Shown here: piece by piece, positions 3,001 through 64,000 of the stretch | Numbering within the stretch: position 1 is the first letter of the stretch | Layout of the letters: the number at the start of each line of letters is the position of its first letter | Assembly (NCBI RefSeq): GCF_900115345.1 | Contig: NZ_FOWC01000004.1 | Coordinates: 62,001-126,000, forward strand | Origin: Amycolatopsis rubida | Lineage (GTDB): Bacteria; Actinomycetota; Actinomycetes; Mycobacteriales; Pseudonocardiaceae | Reading direction: 5' to 3' | Length of the DNA stretch: 64,000 nt | Program-made: the position numbers and the translations under genes | The notes under the pieces: generated by a model | Database searches by the model: none | What the model saw: the letters and a program-made list of their open reading frames with translations, nothing else | Told to the model about the DNA's origin: nothing

Positions 3001-4841
3001 AGTACGCCTACGACCCGACCGGACGGCTCGTCGACGCCGACTGGCCCGCGCCCGAGGGAGAGGACCGGCGCGGCAGGCGGACCGGCCCCGCCTCGGTGAT
3101 CACCGAGGCGGGCGGCGTCCGCTACACCTACGACCAGTCCGGCCGGATGCGCACCCGGCGGCACGAGGACGGACGGACCTGGACCTACACCTGGGGCCCG
3201 CTGAACCGGCTGGTCGCGGTCGAGGTCCCGGACGCCACGACCTGGCGCTACACCTACGATCCGCTGGGCCGCCGCATCCGCAAGGAGCACTTCGCCTCCG
3301 ACGGGACGACTCCGCTCGAACGCGTCGACTTCGCGTGGGACGGCGAAACGCTGGCCGAGGCGACCAGGTCCGGCCCGGGCGCCGCCGAAACCGCGGTGTG
3401 GGACTACGAACCGGGAACCTTCGTGCCGCTGCTGCAGCGCCGGCGCAGCGGTTCCGCGGACCAGAAGCGCATCGACGAACAGTTCTTCGCCATCGTGGCC
3501 GAACCGTCCGGCACGCCGACCGAACTGCTGGACGACCGCGGCGAGATCGCCTGGCAGGCCCGCAGCAGCCTGTTCGGCGTCGTGCTCGCCGAGTCCGGCG
3601 GCTCCGGGACCCCGCTGCGGTTCCAGGGCCAGTATTTCGACGAGGAAACCGGGCTGCACTACAACTTCCACCGGTACTACGACCCGGTGCTCGCCCGGTA
3701 CCTCAGCCCGGACCCGCTCGGGCTCGGCGGCGGACTGGACCCGCACGCCTACGTCAGCAACCCGCACGTCTCGGTCGACCCGCTCGGCCTCACCGGGCGG
3801 CCCTGCCGCAAACTCGGCGGGGGCTCCGGCAGCGGACAGGGCTCCGGCAGCGGACAGGGCTCCGGTGGCTCTCAGCGCGGCCGGGGCCTCTCCCGCGACC
3901 CGAGCCCCGGCCCGAACGGCGAGCGGCGGATGCGGTCACCCGGCGGGCGGGTGTACCAGGAGGGACCGCCGACAGTCGCGGCCGGCGCGCGCAGGCGCGA
4001 GCACTACGGCTACAAGAACCTCTCGCACAAGCACTCCAAGATGCGGCCGCTGTTCGAGCGCAACGCGGTGTCGCCGCCGCCGAAGTTCCGCAAGCGCGGG
4101 GACGACACCAAGTGGTACATGGACCCGAACCGGCGCTACCGGACCCACGACTACCAGGGCAATCCCACCGGTATCGTCCGCGGCCACAGCAATGTCGTGA
4201 TGGGCCACAACCCGTCGGCCGGCACCCACTTCAACCAGACGGGCATCCACCAGACGCCCGGCCAGAACTTCGCGCACAACTCCGACGTGAGGATCTTCAA
4301 GCACCTCGAACCGGCGAAAGACTCCGCCGCGAGCGGGTCCAAGGAACCCGGTTACGACGCTCCGACCCCGCGGCGCGGCAACCGGGTTTACTGGGACCAG
4401 AACCAACCCGGCTACGTCGGCAACCCGGATGCCGACTGGGACCTGGTGCGGCCTAAGCCGAGCACGTCCTCCGGCGGCCACGGCGGATACAGCGGCGGAT
4501 ACAGCGGCGGCGGTTCCAGCAGCCACGGCGGCGGGTACGGAGGCGGCTCCAGCAGCTACAGGGGAGGCTCCAGCGCCAGCTACGGCGGGTACAGCGGTGG
4601 GTACAGCGGCGGCAGTTCCAGCCACGGCGGGTACAGCGGCAGCTACGGCGGCGGCGGATACAGCGGCGGGTACAGCGGCGGCGGATACAGCAGTAGCAGC
4701 CATGGCGGATACAGCGGCGGCGGCAGCAGCAGCCATGGCGGCGGGTACGGCAGCGGCGGATACGGAGGTAGTTACGGCGGCGGCAGCAGCAGCCGCAGGA
4801 ACCACGGCTACGACTCCGACGACGACATCTACGACGCCTGA
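3..4841 (+). CDS. RHS-repeat polymorphic toxin-like protein with WXG100-type N-terminus, 5' truncated by window edge
   Basis: The reading frame is open from base 3, so the true start lies upstream; the GTG at 189 is internal. The first visible residues contain a W-x-G motif (codons at 48-56) in a helical context, as in WXG100/ESX secretion partners. A hydrophobic helix follows (about 210-330), then a Ser/Gly/His-rich linker, a DUF6531-like RHS entry domain (about 740-920), and more than 20 YD/RHS repeats (about 1280-3480). The RHS core closes with the usual motif YLSPDPLGLGG and DPLGLTG near 3700-3800. After it comes a variable C-terminal domain (about 3800-4450) rich in His and Asn, including RGHSNVVMGH, loosely like nuclease-toxin H/N motifs but not assignable by eye. 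The last 115 residues are Gly/Ser/Tyr-rich, then an acidic end. The family is typically exported by type VII or related systems for contact-dependent antagonism. No immunity gene follows before the convergent recG. Confidence 0.9.
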   Translation, partial: VSAELTELVKKDLQDWNGEAADTYRKKAEDTSALIASAQKGSAGAASGVKTAGEIVAAVRSLVRDTIADLVGHLISWALQVLFTAGIGMAWVVPQVVTAVAKTASTIAKVTSKLVKALKALVPLLKKAGVLFEDAGKALKGLKGGKGAPTHTPQDINVKSGNGTRSHPGEDEGTHASSAGGDSGHHGTTQPSGNHESGGEHGGSGGSGGHTSAAGSSSAGGARGNGGDSRSLDKQGENSRSLDNICTTGDPIDVASGQMVMAETDATFLSALPMVFERTHFSSFRAGGWLGPAWVSTLDERIEVYEDQVWFAGADGIVQVFPRPRGDQWVAAEHGPARYLAEEPGGGFVLEDREGERVLTFERGTSPVRPIRSISGRGKEHIFFQRDQRGTPTAMRHSGGHLIQIATEGGLVTGLSTVTKDGAEVPLVRYGYTDGNLTEITNESGLPFRYAYDSMGRIVGWTDRNGEWYRFHYDREGRVVRTEGSGDCLTVTMEYDLAARITHVVDSLGRHNAYHLNETGRVVREVDPTGAARAYEWDALDRLVGETDELGRRRIYRYDDRNNLVALQRADGTGLTIERNDFGQAVRMVEAPGVETRWEYDERGNVTRVVEPGGGTTSYTYDEWGHVASVTGPNGSTLTVVSDDAGNPITVTDPSGATTAYTYDCFGRVTAIVDPNGAAEEFGYTVDGALAWHRLPDGSTEEWLYDGEGNNRLHADASSAITQQEVTHFDLVAAEIRPDGTRLEYSYDTELRLTAVTNEQGQVWRYEYDLAGNLSRETDFGGASSSYGYNAAGELTEIRNQEGDVVTLRRDVRGNIVEEIVEGPSGTLRTRFEYDVLGELVALDDGTTRVEYTRDAASRIVEETVNGRTVRSEFDSAGNQVRRQTPSGAESVWEYSEAGVPAAVRAAGRTTRFEYDRAGRETLRAFGQDAAIVRSWTPAGRLARQAVRSATGEFGQDRQYHYRPDGLPDRIDDGTAGSRWLAMDVRGRVTSVRARDWNEQYAYDPTGRLVDADWPAPEGEDRRGRRTGPASVITEAGGVRYTYDQSGRMRTRRHEDGRTWTYTWGPLNRLVAVEVPDATTWRYTYDPLGRRIRKEHFASDGTTPLERVDFAWDGETLAEATRSGPGAAETAVWDYEPGTFVPLLQRRRSGSADQKRIDEQFFAIVAEPSGTPTELLDDRGEIAWQARSSLFGVVLAESGGSGTPLRFQGQYFDEETGLHYNFHRYYDPVLARYLSPDPLGLGGGLDPHAYVSNPHVSVDPLGLTGRPCRKLGGGSGSGQGSGSGQGSGGSQRGRGLSRDPSPGPNGERRMRSPGGRVYQEGPPTVAAGARRREHYGYKNLSHKHSKMRPLFERNAVSPPPKFRKRGDDTKWYMDPNRRYRTHDYQGNPTGIVRGHSNVVMGHNPSAGTHFNQTGIHQTPGQNFAHNSDVRIFKHLEPAKDSAASGSKEPGYDAPTPRRGNRVYWDQNQPGYVGNPDADWDLVRPKPSTSSGGHGGYSGGYSGGGSSSHGGGYGGGSSSYRGGSSASYGGYSGGYSGGSSSHGGYSGSYGGGGYSGGYSGGGYSSSSHGGYSGGGSSSHGGGYGSGGYGGSYGGGSSSRRNHGYDSDDDIYDA

Positions 4842-44294: not shown

Positions 44295-45449
44295 CCCGTG
44301 AGGCTAGGGCACTCGCCGCGTTCGCAACGCGGCCAAAAAGGTGATTACCCCAGAGCCGTTGCCGCTGACCGGCTCTACCCCCGGTGCGCAAAGTACCCAC
44401 CCGGTGACGTTCACCACCGCCCCGGAGGGCCGAGCGGGTGAAACCCGCTTACTCCACACTCCCCCGAAACCCAGCCAATTCCCAACGACCCCCACCGCGG
44501 CCCGCACCGCCGCCACCCCGTGTCCCCGCCGAGAAACCTTTTAGCCACAACCCTTTCCCCACCACAGAGTCGATGCCCCCCCGCAGCCCCGGCCGTCCTC
44601 AAAGCACCAACAATCACTCATAAGTTCCACGACCGAACCAACCACCCGAAATCCTTTCCGGAAATACCGCCGCCCCACCCTTTCCGACCAGATGGCGACG
44701 TCCCCTCATCCCGCCGGAGATCCACCTGCGTGCACTACGTGCCGTTACGCAAACTCCCCCACATTCTGGTCTCCCGCGGACTACATCAACTCGGCTGTCG
44801 GCACCAGCCAGTGGAACTTCCCGTCTCTTCCCTTCTCTTCCCATCCCTTCCCGTCTCTTCCGAAAGCACCACACCCGCCGATCCTCACCACGATCCGCAG
44901 TGGGCAAACATGCTCGCGGTCCCGCCTTCGCTGCCTATCACCCCTGAAGCACCCCTTTCCCGCTCTCCGCTCCTTGTTCCGCGCTCCGGCTTCCCGCCTC
45001 CATCTCCGGTTCCCCCGCCTCACCTCGCATTGGCCCCCTTCTCTCGTCCGCCCCTTCCCCGTCCGTCCTCGCTGCCCCGTCCTCTCTGCCCCGCCCTCTC
45101 CTTCTCTGCTCGCCCTCTCCTCGGCCCGCCTCCCTGTCCCCGTTGCCCTCCCTCGCTCTCCTTTCCCCGACCTCGCCCGCCCTTTCCCCGTTCTCCCCTG
45201 CCCCCGCCGTCCCCCGTTCCCGCTTCTCTCGCCAAGCCGAAACCGCCCCAACCACCCCAGACCTCAATGCCACAGCCACTCCCCGCCACCCCTTGACAGG
45301 CCGCCCACCGCACCCCGCAAAGCCCCTCCCGAAGACTCCGCCAACTCCGACCTCGACTGCCGCTCCCCCAAACACGCACCCAGTCCAGGGCCGCAAACCC
45401 ACCCCATCGGCCGACTTGACGCACCCTCCGCCCACGGTGCATCCTCACC
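44295..45449. other. Gene-free interval with a long pyrimidine-rich tract
   Basis: About 1.15 kb without a credible gene. From about 44816 to 45240 the plus strand is overwhelmingly C and T (runs such as CCCTTCCCGTCTCTTCC), with very few purines. Frames through it give Pro/Ser/Leu/Arg low-complexity translations and their complements; none has a family feature or a good ribosome binding site. Confidence 0.75.
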
Positions 45450-45471
45450 TTATTCAACAGATGATGAATAA
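45450..45471. promoter_or_regulatory. Palindromic operator upstream of FAD monooxygenase 2
   Basis: TTATTCA-N8-TGAATAA is a perfect 7-bp inverted repeat in otherwise GC-rich DNA, ending 17 bases before the ATG. It would overlap the transcription start or -10 region. Such AT-rich palindromes are typical repressor sites; the regulator is not adjacent. Confidence 0.6.
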
Positions 45472-46739: not shown

Positions 46740-47261
46740 TTCGCCACCAAACGGCAACGCCGAGCACCTCGCGCCTGCGCCAACGCACCCGCCCACCGGC
46801 AATCACCCGCCGGTGGGCCGAGGCCAGACAACGGCGACGCGTTTTCGCCACCCAGCGGCAACAGCGCCACCGACTCGCCACCTGACCATCAGCTGCGCTC
46901 TCGCCACCAACCGGCAACAGCGCCGACTCCTAGCTGACTCAAGCACCGATCGTCGTTCGCCGCTCCGAGGCAACAACGCCGACCACTCACCAAACGAAGC
47001 GCCAGCCACCATTCGCCACTCAACGGCAACAGAGCCCGCCGCCCCCACCCGGGCAACGATCACCTCTCGCCGTTCAACGGCAACGGCAACGGCTGCCACC
47101 AACCTCGGCACTAGCCACCCGGTCGCCCCCGAGCGGCTACAGCCCAAGCCTCCGCAGCATCACCCCGGCGGCCAGAAAACAGCCCCGACCAGGGATTCGC
47201 CACTAAACGGCAACGCCCGAACCGACCCTGCCAAGCCGCTGTCGCCACAAAACGGCGACAG
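46740..47261. repeat. Cluster of short palindromic repeats (family A), gene-free
   Basis: At least eight imperfect copies of TTCGCCACTMAACGGCAAC lie between two genes at 46740, 46844, 46901, 46956, 47012, 47067, 47196 and 47242 (a ninth, poorer one near 47122). Spacings are irregular (46-130 bases). The core is TCGCC-N7/8-GGCRA. The last copy is a perfect hairpin CTGTCGCC/GGCGACAG (47239-47261) ending 6 bases before the FAH stop, so it could terminate that gene. No coding potential was recognised. Confidence 0.85.
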
Positions 47262-50190: not shown

Positions 50191-51195
50191 TCAGCCGGGC
50201 AGACTCGCCAGGTAGCGGCCGAATTCCTCGACCGCTGCCGCATTTCGAGGCCCCTCCACCAAAGCCGCATACGGCAGCGCGAAGAAGCGTCCTTTCTTCA
50301 CTGCCGGGATGTCGCGCAGGCCAGGACGCGAACGAAGGAAGTTCTCCTTGTCGGCCACGCTGCCGACCTCGCCGCCGTAGTCGTTGATGAGGATGACGTC
50401 CGGGGCGCGCTGGATCACGGCTTCCCAGCTGACACTGGTCCAGCTGTCGTTGAGGTCCGCGAAGATGTTGGCACCACCCGATTTGGTGATGATTTCGTCC
50501 GGACCCGCATTGCGTCCGGAGGTGAATGGCTGGTCACGGCCGTCGTCGTAGAGGAACACCTTGGGTTTCGGCCGTCCGGCCGGCACCGCGTTCGTGACAG
50601 CGGCGACCCGTGCGCGGTACTCTTCGACCAAACGTTCTGCACGATCACTGATCCCAAAGATTTTCCCTAGATTGCGCACATCTGTGTACAGCGCGTCGAG
50701 CGGTCGCATAATGCCCCGTTGCTTGCCATTGCCGTTGCGGCACGCCTCGGTGAGCAAGTAGCTGGAGATGCCCAGCTTCGCGAGGGAGTCCGGGGTGAAC
50801 CCGGTTCCTTCGGAGAAGCCGTAGTTCCAGCCCGCGAACACGAGATCCGCTCCCGCGCCCTGCACCACCTCGCGGTTGATCTTCTCCGCGAGCTTGGGCA
50901 CCTTGGCGAAATCGGTTTTCCATGGCGACGAGGCCACGCCGCCGGACTGTCCTTTGTCGACCACGTAACCGGCCATCCGGTCGCCCAGGCCGAGCGCGAA
51001 CATCAGCTCGGTGATGCCGATGTCATTCGTCACGACCCGGGAAGGAGGTTTGGACACGGTCAATGACGAACCGCAGTTGGTCACCGTTACGGGAAACCCG
51101 GCCGGGGCAGCTCCGCCCTCCCCTTCCGGCACTTGAGCGCCGCATCCGGTGGCGACGAGGGCGACCGTCACGATCAACGCGACTGTCCTACGCAT
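50191..51195 (-). CDS. FecB/BtuF-type ABC transporter substrate-binding lipoprotein
   Basis: 334 residues. The lipoprotein signal ends VATGC (Cys near 18). The class III binding-protein fold shows SRVVTNDIGITELMFALGLG and VLINDYGGE, with PFTSGRNAGPDEIITKSGG. The ligand is probably an iron-siderophore, heme or cobalamin; a related group has been proposed to bind F420-0, and fbiD is in the same window, but this cannot be decided here. The ATG at 51195 lies 8 bases inside the ATPase gene. It is the last gene of a permease - ATPase - binding protein operon. Confidence 0.88.
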   Translation of the reverse strand: MRRTVALIVTVALVATGCGAQVPEGEGGAAPAGFPVTVTNCGSSLTVSKPPSRVVTNDIGITELMFALGLGDRMAGYVVDKGQSGGVASSPWKTDFAKVPKLAEKINREVVQGAGADLVFAGWNYGFSEGTGFTPDSLAKLGISSYLLTEACRNGNGKQRGIMRPLDALYTDVRNLGKIFGISDRAERLVEEYRARVAAVTNAVPAGRPKPKVFLYDDGRDQPFTSGRNAGPDEIITKSGGANIFADLNDSWTSVSWEAVIQRAPDVILINDYGGEVGSVADKENFLRSRPGLRDIPAVKKGRFFALPYAALVEGPRNAAAVEEFGRYLASLPG

Positions 51196-51976
51196 GACTG
51201 TCCTCCTGGGACTCGAGCAGGTCGAACAACAACTGCGGGCGGCCCGTGGCGGGGTGTCGCACCACATGCCCGCGCACCCCGAACACGTCGGCGAGCAGCG
51301 CAGGCGTGAGCACCTCAGCCGGGGTTCCGCTCGCGACGAGGCGGCCGTGGTCGAGCACGTGCACCATGTCGCAGACGGCGGCGGCCAGGTTCAAGTCGTG
51401 AAGCGCGGCCAGCACTGTCGGTCCGCTGGTGCGAGCGAGTGCGAGGACTTCGAGCTGGTGCCGGACGTCGAGATGGTTGGTCGGCTCGTCGAGCACGAGG
51501 ATCCGGGGCTGCTGCGCGAGTGCGCGCGCGATCAGCACACGTTGCCGTTCGCCGCCGGACAAGGTGAGCACGCCTCGCTCGGCCAGGTGCGCCAGGCCCA
51601 CTTGAGCCAGCGCGTCGGCGCACAACTGGTGGTCGGCTGCGCTCATGCGGTCGAGCAGGCCGTGATGCGGCATCCGACCCATCGCCACCACTTCGGCGAC
51701 GGTGAAGTCGAACTCCGCGTGCGATTCCTGCGCAACCGCGGCGATCGCGCGCGCCCGCTTCCGCGGTGCCATGCCGTCCACCGGCCGGCCGTCGACCAGA
51801 ACAGCCCCGGCTGACGGCTTGAGCACTTGGTACACGGCGCGCAAGGTCGTCGACTTTCCACTGCCGTTCGGGCCGAGCAGTCCGACGAACTGGCCTTGCC
51901 GAGCTTCGAGGGTCACGTCGTCGACCAGCTTGCGACCGGCCGCGGTCACGCTGACACCGTTGAGCGAGAGGTCCAT
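51188..51976 (-). CDS. FecE/BtuD-type ABC transporter ATP-binding protein
   Basis: 262 residues. Walker A GLLGPNGSGKSTTLRAV near 33, Q-loop in VAQESHAEF, signature LSGGERQRVLIARALAQQ near 140, Walker B ILVLDEPTNHLD, and switch His in LAALHDLNLAAAVCD. It powers uptake through the FecCD permease. Its ATG directly abuts the permease stop, and its end overlaps the binding-protein start by 8 bases. Confidence 0.94.
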   Translation of the reverse strand: MDLSLNGVSVTAAGRKLVDDVTLEARQGQFVGLLGPNGSGKSTTLRAVYQVLKPSAGAVLVDGRPVDGMAPRKRARAIAAVAQESHAEFDFTVAEVVAMGRMPHHGLLDRMSAADHQLCADALAQVGLAHLAERGVLTLSGGERQRVLIARALAQQPRILVLDEPTNHLDVRHQLEVLALARTSGPTVLAALHDLNLAAAVCDMVHVLDHGRLVASGTPAEVLTPALLADVFGVRGHVVRHPATGRPQLLFDLLESQEDSHA

Positions 51977-53653
51977 TCACGCACCTCCGAACACATATGC
52001 GCGACGACGCATCAAGAGCAGGAAGGCCGGTACCCCGACCGCCGCGGTCAGCACCCCGATCGGCAACTCCTCGGGTGCGGCGAGCACCCGCGCCGCGACG
52101 TCCACCCACACCAGGAAAACCGCGCCGGCAAGCGGTGCCACGGCAAGCACCCGGCGATGGTCGGCACCGACGACCAGCCGTACCAGATGCGGAAGGACCA
52201 GCCCGACAAATCCGATCGCCCCGCTCACCGCGACCAGAACACCCGTCATGGCAGCGCAAACGATGAACAGGAGGACCCGCAGTTTCCCGACGTCGACGCC
52301 GAGAGTGGTCGCCGCTTCGTCGCCCATGGCGAGCGCGTTGAGCCGGCCGGACAGCGCCAGCAACAACAAAACGCCGCCGACCACCACGATCGCGGCGATT
52401 GGCAGCGTGCCCCAGTTCGCGCCGGCGAGACTGCCGAGAAGCCAAAACAGCGCCGACCGCGCGGCCTCTCCGTTCGGCGCTTGGAAGACGATCACCGTGG
52501 TGATCGCGAAGAACCCATAGGACAACGTTGTTCCGGTGAGCACCAGACGCAGCGGTGTAAGCCCTTGCCGCGTTCGGGCGACGAGATAAACGATCAAAGT
52601 CGCGGCGAGCGCGGCCACGAACGCACCGGCCGACAACGCGTAGATCCCGAGCGACGCGAAGACGCCGAACAACGTCACCGCTGTCGCGCCGACGGACGCG
52701 CCAGAAGAAATTCCCAGCACGTACGGCTCGGCGAGCGCGTTGCGCACCATCGCTTGAATCGCGACGCCGACTGTCGACAACCCAGCACCGACGACCACCG
52801 CGAGCAGAACGCGAGGAAGCCGGAGGTCCCAAATGATCCGGTACTCCCCGATCTCATCCGGACTGATCGTCCCGCCGAACAACCCAGCGCGGAGAAAGGC
52901 CCACGTGTGAGTGACCGGCACCGCCACCGTCCCGATCCCGACCGCGATGACGATCGACCCGAGCAAAGCCACCCCAAGCCCGAGCAGCACCGGTGTCAAC
53001 GGCCGTCGCCGCTGAACGGCGACGGTCCCGACCTGGGGTTCGCCACTCAACGGCGACGCAGCCTGCTGCCTCGGGGACTCGCCGATGCGCGGCGACGCAG
53101 TCCGCTCACTCAGAGATTCGCCAGTCCGCGGCAACACAGCCTGCTGGCTCTCGGGCTCGCCGAACCGCGGCAACACAACCCGCTCACTCACGGAATCGCC
53201 GTTCAACGGCGACGTAACCCGCTGCCTCAGAGATTCGCCAGTCCGCGGCGACACAACCCGCTGGCTCTGGGGTTCGCCGACGCGTGGCGACACAACCTGC
53301 TGGCTCTCGGGCTCGCCGAACCGCGGCGAGACCTGCCCCTCACCCAAGGATTGGTCATCCAACGGCGAGACAACGCGAGCGCCGGAGCTGGTCAGATCAC
53401 GGTCAGCCGAGCTGTCGGCCTGCAACTCGTCGGCCGTCGGGTCGCCGCGATGCCCCGAGTTGCCGCGAACTGGCGAATCCGTCGCAGCCGAAGAACCACT
53501 CTGGGGGCTCGAGTCGCGCGTACCGCCGTCGCCGTTGGATGGCGAAAGACCAGAACCGCCGTCACCAGAAACCGGCGAACCCCCACCCCCGCCGGCCACG
53601 GATCCGGGTAACGGAGAACGTCCTTCGGAAGAAGGCGAAGACGAAGACACCAC
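51977..53653 (-). CDS. FecCD/BtuC-type ABC permease with a repeat-expanded N-terminal extension
   Basis: 558 residues if started at 53653, against about 330-360 for the family. The membrane core (about residues 215-558; LRLPRVLLAVVVGAGLSTVG, EPYVLGISSGASVG, GFVGLVLPHLVRL) is complete with about 9-10 helices. Upstream are ~200 residues of low-complexity sequence: a Gly/Ser-rich part then nine units of about 13 residues with consensus VxSPRxGEPxSQR, encoded by tandem 39-bp repeats. No good internal GTG/ATG start was found just before the core (a TTG is possible), so the extension may be translated, or the true start may be internal. It is the first gene of the operon. Confidence 0.85.
   Translation of the reverse strand: MVSSSSPSSEGRSPLPGSVAGGGGGSPVSGDGGSGLSPSNGDGGTRDSSPQSGSSAATDSPVRGNSGHRGDPTADELQADSSADRDLTSSGARVVSPLDDQSLGEGQVSPRFGEPESQQVVSPRVGEPQSQRVVSPRTGESLRQRVTSPLNGDSVSERVVLPRFGEPESQQAVLPRTGESLSERTASPRIGESPRQQAASPLSGEPQVGTVAVQRRRPLTPVLLGLGVALLGSIVIAVGIGTVAVPVTHTWAFLRAGLFGGTISPDEIGEYRIIWDLRLPRVLLAVVVGAGLSTVGVAIQAMVRNALAEPYVLGISSGASVGATAVTLFGVFASLGIYALSAGAFVAALAATLIVYLVARTRQGLTPLRLVLTGTTLSYGFFAITTVIVFQAPNGEAARSALFWLLGSLAGANWGTLPIAAIVVVGGVLLLLALSGRLNALAMGDEAATTLGVDVGKLRVLLFIVCAAMTGVLVAVSGAIGFVGLVLPHLVRLVVGADHRRVLAVAPLAGAVFLVWVDVAARVLAAPEELPIGVLTAAVGVPAFLLLMRRRAYVFGGA
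53005..53351. repeat. 39-bp tandem repeats inside the permease gene (family A core)
   Basis: Units begin (plus strand TCGCC) at 53040, 53079, 53118, 53157, 53196, 53235, 53274 and 53313, exactly 39 bases apart, with a ninth, offset unit at 53005. Each contains TCGCC-N8-GGCGA or a one-base variant, the same core as the intergenic cluster at 46740-47261. Because 39 is a multiple of 3, copy number can change without breaking the frame. Confidence 0.9.
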
Positions 53654-53780
53654 CGGCGACGACCCAATCGAGACATTGGGCCCGCAAAAGACGGCAGCCG
53701 CCGGCGGCGGGAGTGTCGTCTCCCGCAGACCACGACGGGAGGGGACGAGGTTCGAGGAACCTCCGCCGGTATCGGGCTCG

Positions 53781-53810
53781 CCTTCGGCTCCGCGGAGATG
53801 GAGCCGAAGG
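53781..53810 (-). terminator. leuB terminator
   Basis: An 11-bp perfect inverted repeat (53781-53791 with 53800-53810) lies about 70 bases past the leuB stop, in the 227-base gap to the ABC operon, which holds no gene. Confidence 0.7.
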
Positions 53811-53880
53811 CCTACCGTTGCGGGTCAGCGCCGGATTTCGACCGGCTTCCGCGGCGGGGGTCCGAAAACTCAGGACAGGG

Positions 53881-58517: not shown

Positions 58518-58717
58518 GAGTAACCCCTTCTCGAGGCCCGGATCACGAACCTGCCCGCGCTCTCCCTTCGCACCCCCGACGGTGAGCACCGGCGCCGCGC
58601 CGTGCTCTCACGGCGCGTGGTTCAGCCTCGCGGCAAGAACCTAACTGTCCGAAACCCCTACTTTCGTGCGGAAAAAGCTCCGTTACCCGAATGTTGCCGG
58701 TCCGGGAAGAACGACAG

Positions 58718-58754
58718 AACGGCCCCTTCCCCGGGGTCCGGGGAAGGGGCCGTT
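58718..58754. terminator. serA terminator
   Basis: A perfect 15-bp inverted repeat (58718-58732 with 58740-58754, loop of 7) lies 14 bases past the serA stop. Confidence 0.88.
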
Positions 58755-58768
58755 CGGCGAAATCGGGA

Positions 58769-62234: not shown

Positions 62235-62253
62235 TTCGCCACTCAACGGCGAA
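62235..62253. repeat. Isolated family A palindrome
   Basis: TTCGCCACTCAACGGCGAA: perfect arms TTCGCC/GGCGAA around ACTCAAC. It is identical in core to repeats at 47012 and 53040. It lies in the gene-free part 62131-62409. Confidence 0.85.
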
Positions 62254-63146: not shown

Positions 63147-64000
63147 ATGACGGCCTTACCCGCCAACCCCGACCTCGGCCAGCTCCGTAAACAGGCCAAG
63201 GAACGCGCCCGCGCCGACTCCATCGCACTGTCGGAAGCGCAGTTCCGGCTCGCTCGCCGCTACTGACTCCCCAGCTGGCCACAGCTTCAGGCCTATGTCC
63301 GCCGAATCTCCGAGCACGGACCGGACGTCCAGCACGCCTACCACCAGGACGTCAAGTACTACCGCGGCCGCGACGTCGGCCTCCTCGCCTCAGCCGAAGA
63401 CGGCACTCCCGACGCCCGCGCCGCCTTCGACCGGCACGAACAACCGCTGACCCGCACCGGCGCGCTAACCGTCATCGCCCGGGAGCACGGCTTCCCGACG
63501 TGGCGGACGCTGAAGGCCCACGTCGAGGATTTGCCGAAAAACGGCGAACCGTTCGCCCGGGCTTATCAGCTGGTAGAAGCCCGAGACTTGGAGGGCCTGA
63601 CAGCACTGCTCACCGAGGCCCCGCACCTTGCCCACGCCCGAGGCACCAACGGGAACGATCTTTTCGGCATGGCCTCAGCGACCCATGACGAACGTCTCGT
63701 CCGCATCCTGCTCGCCCACGGTGCCGATCCCGCACGAGCCAATGCACACGGTTGGGCTGCCCTGCATCAAGCGGCCTACGTCAATTTACCACTGATCGCC
63801 GACCTCTTGATCAACGCTGGCGCACCCTTGGCCGTCTCAGGCCGCGGCGACGGCGGAACCCCGCTGATTGTGGCCCTATTTTGGGGAAATCGCGCTGTTG
63901 CCGAAAAACTGGCAACGCACGAACGGTCCCCTCACAACCTGCGCGTCGCAGCCGGTCTCGGCGACGACGCACTACTGGATGAACTCGTCAGTCCAAAGGG
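63147..64000 (+). pseudogene. Ankyrin-repeat protein gene interrupted by an in-frame TGA, 3' end beyond window
   Basis: ATG at 63147 follows GGAAGGAAGGA. The first 39 codons (LRKQAKERARAD...LSEAQFRLARRY) are the standard N-terminus of a bacterial ankyrin family. TGA follows at 63264-63266, but the same frame then continues without a stop to the window end as LPSWPQLQAYV and a full set of ankyrin units (NDLFGMASATHDERLVRILL; GWAALHQAAYVNLPLIADLL; GGTPLIVALFWGN). In the family the interrupted position is usually Gly-Phe in ARxYGFPSWP, so a GGA-to-TGA change fits. Readthrough or sequencing error are alternatives. Confidence 0.8.

Follow-up and report, generated by a model that had tools for sequence, protein, structure and literature searches.

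A coding array of 39-bp units as a possible part of a family of 17-bp DNA sites in one segment of the Amycolatopsis chromosome

In our assessment, there is about an even chance that an array of eight 39-bp units inside a FecCD permease gene belongs, as its coding portion, to a family of 17-bp DNA sites (TCGCC-N7-GGCRA) marking a segment of about 88 kb in one species group of Amycolatopsis, a genus of soil bacteria. The array lies in a stretch of 64,000 nucleotides, here called the window (C23:62001-126000, C23 being the contig), of a 9.87-Mb genome in 45 contigs. The closest matches to the permease, at 95-98% identity, come from Amycolatopsis nivea, A. orientalis DSM 43388, A. dendrobii, A. 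circi and A. echigonensis. A preliminary description of the window recognized the array; it missed that the family is confined to one segment, that a second gene has an extension of the same kind, and that the palindrome arms are conserved in non-coding DNA. Coding and non-coding labels are taken from home-made gene calls based on hexamer scores, not from a published gene caller. The permease locus has the following features, in window positions.

50191..51267, minus strand: substrate-binding protein gene (PF01497, E 7.9e-23)
51188..51976, minus strand: ABC transporter ATPase gene, adjoining the permease gene (PF00005, E 2.2e-33)
51977..53653, minus strand: FecCD permease gene, an open frame of 558 codons from the GTG at 53653 (PF01032)
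52990..53653, minus strand: N-terminal extension of the permease, holding the array, in frame in ten genomes
53006..53022, minus strand: core copy at the junction where the membrane core begins, in another phase, read as VAVQRR (pattern search)
53018..53329, minus strand: eight 39-bp units of 13 residues each (pattern match, Tandem Repeats Finder and translation)
53460..53476, minus strand: further core copy in the extension, read as SPVRGN (pattern search)
53529..53545, minus strand: further core copy in the extension, read as SPSNGD (pattern search)
53620..53746, minus strand: leader from the aptamer to the coding start (predicted fold, z -3.02)
53747..53874, minus strand: cobalamin riboswitch aptamer, upstream of the permease gene (RF00174; score 36.2 bits, gathering threshold 31.5)

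The array was originally described as eight units at 39-base steps, encoding 13-residue repeats ahead of a FecCD core, and core positions and translation bear this out. The palindromic cores start at 53040, 53079, 53118, 53157, 53196, 53235, 53274 and 53313 on the plus strand, a step of exactly 39, and the units translate on the minus strand to SPRFGEPESQQVV, SPRVGEPQSQRVV and so on, with 13 residues per unit. The FecCD core matches PF01032 over residues 230-550 (E 6.2e-87; 292 bits against a cut-off of 26.5). Tandem Repeats Finder reports a period of 39 with 7.2 copies and 73% matches over 53051-53329, so the spacing is exact but the units have diverged. The description also held that the array shares a core, TCGCC-N8-GGCGA, with an intergenic family. 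The sharing is real, but the spacer is 7 rather than 8: TCGCC-N7-GGCGA has 11 matches in the window against 0.80 expected, a number reached by none of 100 shuffles, and TCGCC-N8-GGCGA has 3 against 0.63 expected, none of them inside the array. A core match placed at 62235 is likewise present, with its start at 62236. The family core is the 17-bp TCGCC-N7-GGCRA, and a copy is defined in what follows as TYGCC-N7-GGCRA, degenerate on at most one side (the working definition). The spacer is fixed: a spacer of 7 was seen 71 times, and spacers of 3-6 and 8-12 were each seen 0-7 times. Three non-coding loci in the window carry the core, as found by pattern search.

46741..47258, no strand: non-coding array between two convergent genes, with eight copies by the working definition and a weaker match at 47123
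62236..62252, no strand: single non-coding core copy
63531..63547, no strand: single core copy, non-coding by the hexamer gene calls

The shared core does occur elsewhere in the genome, and the family is restricted to a single segment. By the working definition, 71 copies lie in C23:104-192 kb, comprising 41 in non-coding DNA, 19 in the two extensions and 11 in other coding sequences, and the flanking C23:61-104 kb and 192-300 kb (43 and 108 kb) hold none. A narrow pattern, TTCGCCNNTNAACGGCRA, has 10 matches genome-wide, all in C23:109-183 kb; a looser pattern has 79, with 40 in C23:104-192 kb, 5 in C23:59-61 kb and 34 elsewhere. When spaced palindromes with 5-mer arms (gaps 3-12) were screened across 1.1 Mb, the family core ranked top, scoring 1.8e-13 and 2.8e-12 in two neighbouring 50-kb bins, with the next score at 6.0e-8. 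Copies beyond the segment are few: 8 in 580 kb on three other contigs and 7 in C23:300-500 kb by the working definition, and a patch at C23:50-61 kb, separated from the segment by 43 kb without copies. A. nivea and the relative G001 also have copies at the corresponding end. The copies in the patch, on contig C15 and at scattered sites count against the reading of the family as a regional DNA site.

Judged by sequence comparison, relatives carry the family in the syntenic segment. Relatives were searched with TTCGCCRYTVARYGGCRA, with symmetric sites counted on both strands. A single stretch accounts for 31 of the 32 matches in A. orientalis DSM 43388 (C153:15-90 kb), 29 of the 32 in A. nivea (C57:107-185 kb) and 18 of the 20 in A. 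dendrobii (C56:100-178 kb); in A. circi, 23 of the 27 fall on contig C57, and in A. echigonensis, 24 of the 25 fall on two contigs. This pattern has two matches in A. jejuensis and none in A. saalfeldensis or A. anabasis. Counted by the working definition, copies number 66 in the 117.6 kb of A. jejuensis examined and, in G001, 68 in C2:640-720 kb, around the same gatB gene. Among 79 other genomes of the genus, at least 16 have any match and at least 11 have five or more; matches in G036 and G048 lie around or adjoining gatB, and the match positions listed are those of genomes other than G080, G070 and G090.

The possibility that the segment is the replication terminus or origin was rejected. 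A dif-like site lies on C32, dnaA lies on C39, and in the five relatives with both genes compared on one contig the segment is 1.6-2.0 Mb from dnaA; among these five, only G001 carries the family. The dif-like sequence, at C32:207018-207036, is the sole match to the dif motif in this genome, and it recurs with up to 2 mismatches in 8 of the 10 Amycolatopsis genomes that were searched for it. Cumulative GC skew has a local minimum near C23:160 kb.

Outside genes, the arms of the site are conserved far better than their surroundings. The ten arm bases were compared with the flanks in those of the 41 non-coding copies that align between species without gaps. Differences at arms and flanks, respectively, number 3/230 and 104/780 for A. 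dendrobii (23 copies), 3/210 and 98/709 for A. nivea (21 copies), 1/120 and 69/406 for A. circi (12 copies), 0/80 and 48/288 for A. orientalis (8 copies), 0/70 and 44/239 (7 copies) and 1/60 and 21/204 (6 copies) for A. echigonensis, and 6/60 and 52/202 for A. jejuensis (6 copies). With gaps allowed, arms are 93-99% identical and flanks 76-84%. Bases in the core interior vary about as much as the flanks, and lone half-sites differ at 7-14%; what is kept is therefore the pair of arms at a spacing of 7. In one of the two halves, T may replace C at the second position, as it does in 27 of 40 non-coding copies with one mismatch. All that the flanks of 42 non-coding copies have in common is a weak base preference beside the core, so they are not copies of a longer element. 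The arms are rigidly spaced, symmetric and conserved, interior changes between species are not compensatory, and copies occur on both strands, in and between genes. These data argue for a DNA site that is read by a protein.

Copies prefer gaps between convergent genes. In six of the seven species mapped, such gaps contain 4.3-8.0 copies per kb, and in A. jejuensis they contain 2.75; divergent gaps contain 0-0.73, and tandem gaps are intermediate, with counts that include the two extensions. The occupied gaps tend to be the same ones from species to species, and the number of copies per gap varies strongly, as it does for freely spreading repeats, which argues against the DNA-site reading. A second point against it is that asymmetric copies are directional, with outer and inner marks concordant 18 to 1, since a simple symmetric operator does not predict such directionality. 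The favoured direction tends, with exceptions, to flip near C23:150-160 kb, where GC skew also changes sign, and a mutational strand bias could be the source of copy direction. Two further intergenic stretches of the window have their own character: the gap at 44500-45450 is pyrimidine-rich on the plus strand with little G and contains short tandem CTTCCCGTCT-type repeats, and 58717-58755, between two genes, is a perfect 18-bp inverted repeat with a 3-base loop, resembling a terminator.

As far as the sequence can tell, the permease extension is translated, most likely from the GTG directly behind the riboswitch and hence from upstream of the array. About 220 extra codons lie between riboswitch and membrane core. 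Their frame is open in ten genomes, an observation that was not used as evidence by itself, since alternative frames of this GC-rich stretch are likewise open. The permease extensions of the same ten genomes contain 98 copies; 91 of these are in phase 0, with 10 in the genome analysed, 6 each in A. dendrobii, A. orientalis and A. jejuensis, 12 each in A. nivea and A. circi, 8 each in A. echigonensis, G001 and G090, and 15 in G070. The remaining 7 copies, one each in seven genomes, sit at the membrane-core junction and read VAVQRR. The permease of G036 was matched in part (residues 111-238), and its four mixed-phase copies are outside the phase count. Steps within the extension are 21, 24, 30, 33, 39, 60, 63, 66, 69, 72, 78, 90, 147 and others, all multiples of three, a rule that exempts the step to the junction copy. 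GTG is the first codon behind the riboswitch in all seven genomes in which this anchor was found, namely the genome analysed, A. dendrobii, A. orientalis, A. nivea, A. circi, G070 and G090; the anchor was not found in A. jejuensis, G001 or the A. echigonensis pieces. Translation from the membrane core only was rejected on the strength of the multiple-of-three spacings, in contrast to the intergenic array, whose steps (56, 55, 104 and others) include all residues modulo 3, together with the GTG start behind the riboswitch. In the predicted fold of the leader, the GUGGUG at 53648-53653 is base-paired within a strong stem, which fits a model of translation control from that start. The repeat is accordingly carried in frame, as originally proposed, with a copy number that differs between species in steps of three bases. 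The G001 permease extension, on contig C2, also carries a long in-frame GS run followed by DS dipeptides.

The same reading in frame is found in a second gene, outside the window.

C23:187041-187880, strand opposite to the permease gene: NlpC/P60-family gene (PF00877, E 9.7e-25)

Its product has a hydrophobic segment near the start and an in-frame extension with 8 copies, which read as S-P or L-P-x-x-G-E/D. All 81 copies in this extension over eight genomes are in phase 0. An assignment of this gene by eye as lytic-transglycosylase-like was superseded by the Pfam match. In the outgroup G003, where gene order across the segment is largely conserved, the upstream frame of the NlpC/P60 gene has no copies, and the protein seems, from a start judged by eye, to begin shortly before the hydrophobic segment. 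A search of the genome with the 110-residue repeat stretch of the permease returned the query itself and 8 weak matches (E 0.09 to 0.69), among them the NlpC/P60 gene at E 0.13. Ordinary coding sequences of the segment hold 11 copies, in all three phases, compared with none in 130 kb of flanking coding sequence on both sides. Outside the segment, one copy in the C23:50-61 kb patch lies at the beginning of a gene of the erythromycin-esterase family (C23:58378-59595, minus strand), where it is read as SPLGGD. At C15:22397-25674, six copies lie near a frame leading into a small membrane protein, GtrA-like by eye, and are read in a phase other than that of the two arrays.

Codon choice in both extensions keeps the palindrome. 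Motif codons are TCG for 114 of 116 serines, GGC for 109 of 116 glycines and GAA for 65 of 84 glutamates, compared with 262 of 604, 199 of 551 and 53 of 168 elsewhere in the same extensions; aspartate at the motif is GAC in 27 of 32 cases and in 79 of 162 elsewhere. These figures come from 14 extensions of seven species; as the copies are related, they are to be taken as counts and do not represent independent observations. In the 39-bp units, conservation is 97-100% in the arms and 75-77% at the remaining bases; the glutamate codon's third base is not conserved in the genome's own units (0.43). Among phase-0 coding copies, 57 have one mismatch and 107 are perfect, with C4T (12), C2T (10) and G16A (9) in the spectrum. 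Coding copies thus decay more than the rule for non-coding copies predicts, which counts against the DNA-site explanation.

If the site acts as DNA, as we infer, its likeliest reader would be a dimeric DNA-binding protein that coats or organizes the segment. Copies would multiply locally by duplication, and they also occur inside ordinary genes. Where arrays grew between the riboswitch and the permease core, and ahead of the second gene, only those in frame would have survived. The outcome would be an N-terminal tail, probably disordered and cytoplasmic, with repeated S-P-x-x-G-E motifs, which the protein may tolerate or find mildly useful, and which would not be the reason for the site's existence. 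More tentatively, and with considerable doubt, the family may be the target of a putative new chromosome-domain system, in which a presumed dimeric protein binds some 70 conserved palindromes, spaced at roughly 1.2 kb on average, and turns the segment into a distinct nucleoprotein domain away from origin and terminus. The pressure to retain sites would then be strong enough for two membrane proteins to carry translated arrays and for ordinary genes to carry copies.

An alternative, which we regard as unlikely but as the strongest of the rivals, is a selfish or neutral micro-palindrome, similar to REP elements, that spreads only nearby by duplication, template switching or short-range gene conversion and is tolerated in convergent gaps and, within genes, only in frame. 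Variable copy number in the same gaps is consistent with this model, as are the roughly 56-bp steps between copies of the array in the C23:108.7 kb gap and the preference for convergent gaps, which REPs share. Gaps that hold copies here are also shorter in G003 in two of three compared cases: one gap that spans about 5 bp between protein matches in G003 is 539 bp with 8 copies in the genome analysed and 554 bp with 4 copies in G001, and a second is 267 bp in G003 and 577 bp here. However, two convergent gaps are longer in G003, at 4150 and 2935 bp with one copy each, than here, at 375 and 522 bp with three each. The model is further weakened by old orthologous copies that keep their arms far better than their flanks, by flanks without common sequence beyond the weak preference next to the core, and by copies of all phases in ordinary coding sequences.

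REP palindromes are nevertheless the closest known kind, with hallmarks (a tag, a transposase and wide spread) that this family lacks. In passages of PMC3733652, REPs of the GTAG and CGTC superfamilies are described as short palindromes with GTAG or CGTC at one end, mostly intergenic and favouring convergent and unidirectional gaps, at times clustered and at times in frame within ORFs; they are mostly genome-wide, and one clustered exception, T. roseum, is named. The present family resembles that account in its short palindromes, mostly between genes, its preference for convergent over divergent gaps, its clusters and its in-frame cases. It differs in being confined to one segment (10 of 10 narrow and 40 of 79 looser matches), and neither GTAG nor CGTC is conserved in the flanks of the 42 non-coding copies. 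A Y1 transposase of the RAYT type was sought with PF01797 (Y1_Tnp) in 13 genomes and found in none, with the control search positive in 5 of 14 named genomes; on this absence RAYT-type mobility was rejected for the 13 genomes, and it counts against REP-like spread. In a limited look at the open Amycolatopsis literature, including parts of PMC6749651, no such family was reported.

A quite improbable alternative is that the palindrome forms an RNA hairpin, acting as a transcription terminator or as a stabilizer of mRNA 3' ends for the genes of the segment. Placement in convergent gaps is consistent with this model, and several copies lie 7-20 bases past stop codons; mismatches of the wobble type also fall on one strand per copy, again 18 concordant to 1. 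However, the interior changes between species are not compensatory, and the strand with the better hairpin does not track the direction of neighbouring genes, as judged by inspection rather than by a formal count. Copies inside genes do not fit a hairpin, and confinement to 88 kb would be left unexplained. The proposal in the preliminary description that the array is a contingency locus for an uptake system, here taken to vary B12 uptake through repeat number, is very improbable: while the permease extension holds 6 to 15 phase-0 copies across species, the frame is kept in all ten genomes, the units are 73% matched rather than near-identical, and the family is mostly non-coding and occurs in an unrelated gene. 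Copy number would not switch the permease off, since spacings in the extension, except to the junction copy, are multiples of three. Equally slight is the chance that a useful S-P-x-x-G-E peptide repeat came first and is palindromic only through codon preference, for although the motif stands ahead of the membrane part in two membrane proteins, its codon choice is strongly unlike that of the rest of the same extensions, 41 copies are conserved in non-coding DNA, and copies in other coding sequences occur in other phases.

Known protein-coding palindromes offer analogies in the form of PARCELs and Rickettsia palindromic elements. The Rickettsia elements are longer and are dispersed across many genes. 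They are palindromic DNA inserted in frame in coding regions, according to passages of PMC3733652, and the present family shares in-frame palindromes with them but has a 17-bp core, a single segment and arrays within two genes. PARCELs, as portrayed in parts of PMC2996958, are tandem repeats with DNA dyad symmetry that diversify membrane-associated proteins through a 25-residue amphipathic repeat in distant taxa; here, by comparison with that portrayal, the repeat has 13 residues with no evident hydrophobic pattern, one bacterial group is involved, and most copies lie outside the repeat genes.

For confinement, sites of the MatP/matS type may serve as an analogy. Like parS, the site of ParB, matS is a short palindrome that occurs in one part of the chromosome only and is retained there across species. 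The likeness is in confinement to one domain across species and in selective conservation of non-coding sites. The differences are that the segment lies neither at dnaA nor at the dif-like site, where matS belongs to the terminus and parS to the origin region, that site density is far higher here than for matS, and that the binder here is a presumed one.

Short palindromic repeats are usually seen as widely spread and as neutral or selfish. The family described here is tied to a single segment in a species group, its arms are conserved between species outside genes, and its sites are also written into coding sequence as long extra protein tails. It may therefore provide a system for asking whether a short chromosomal stretch outside the origin and terminus regions can have its own marking protein, and for asking how a DNA signal and a protein sequence use the same bases.
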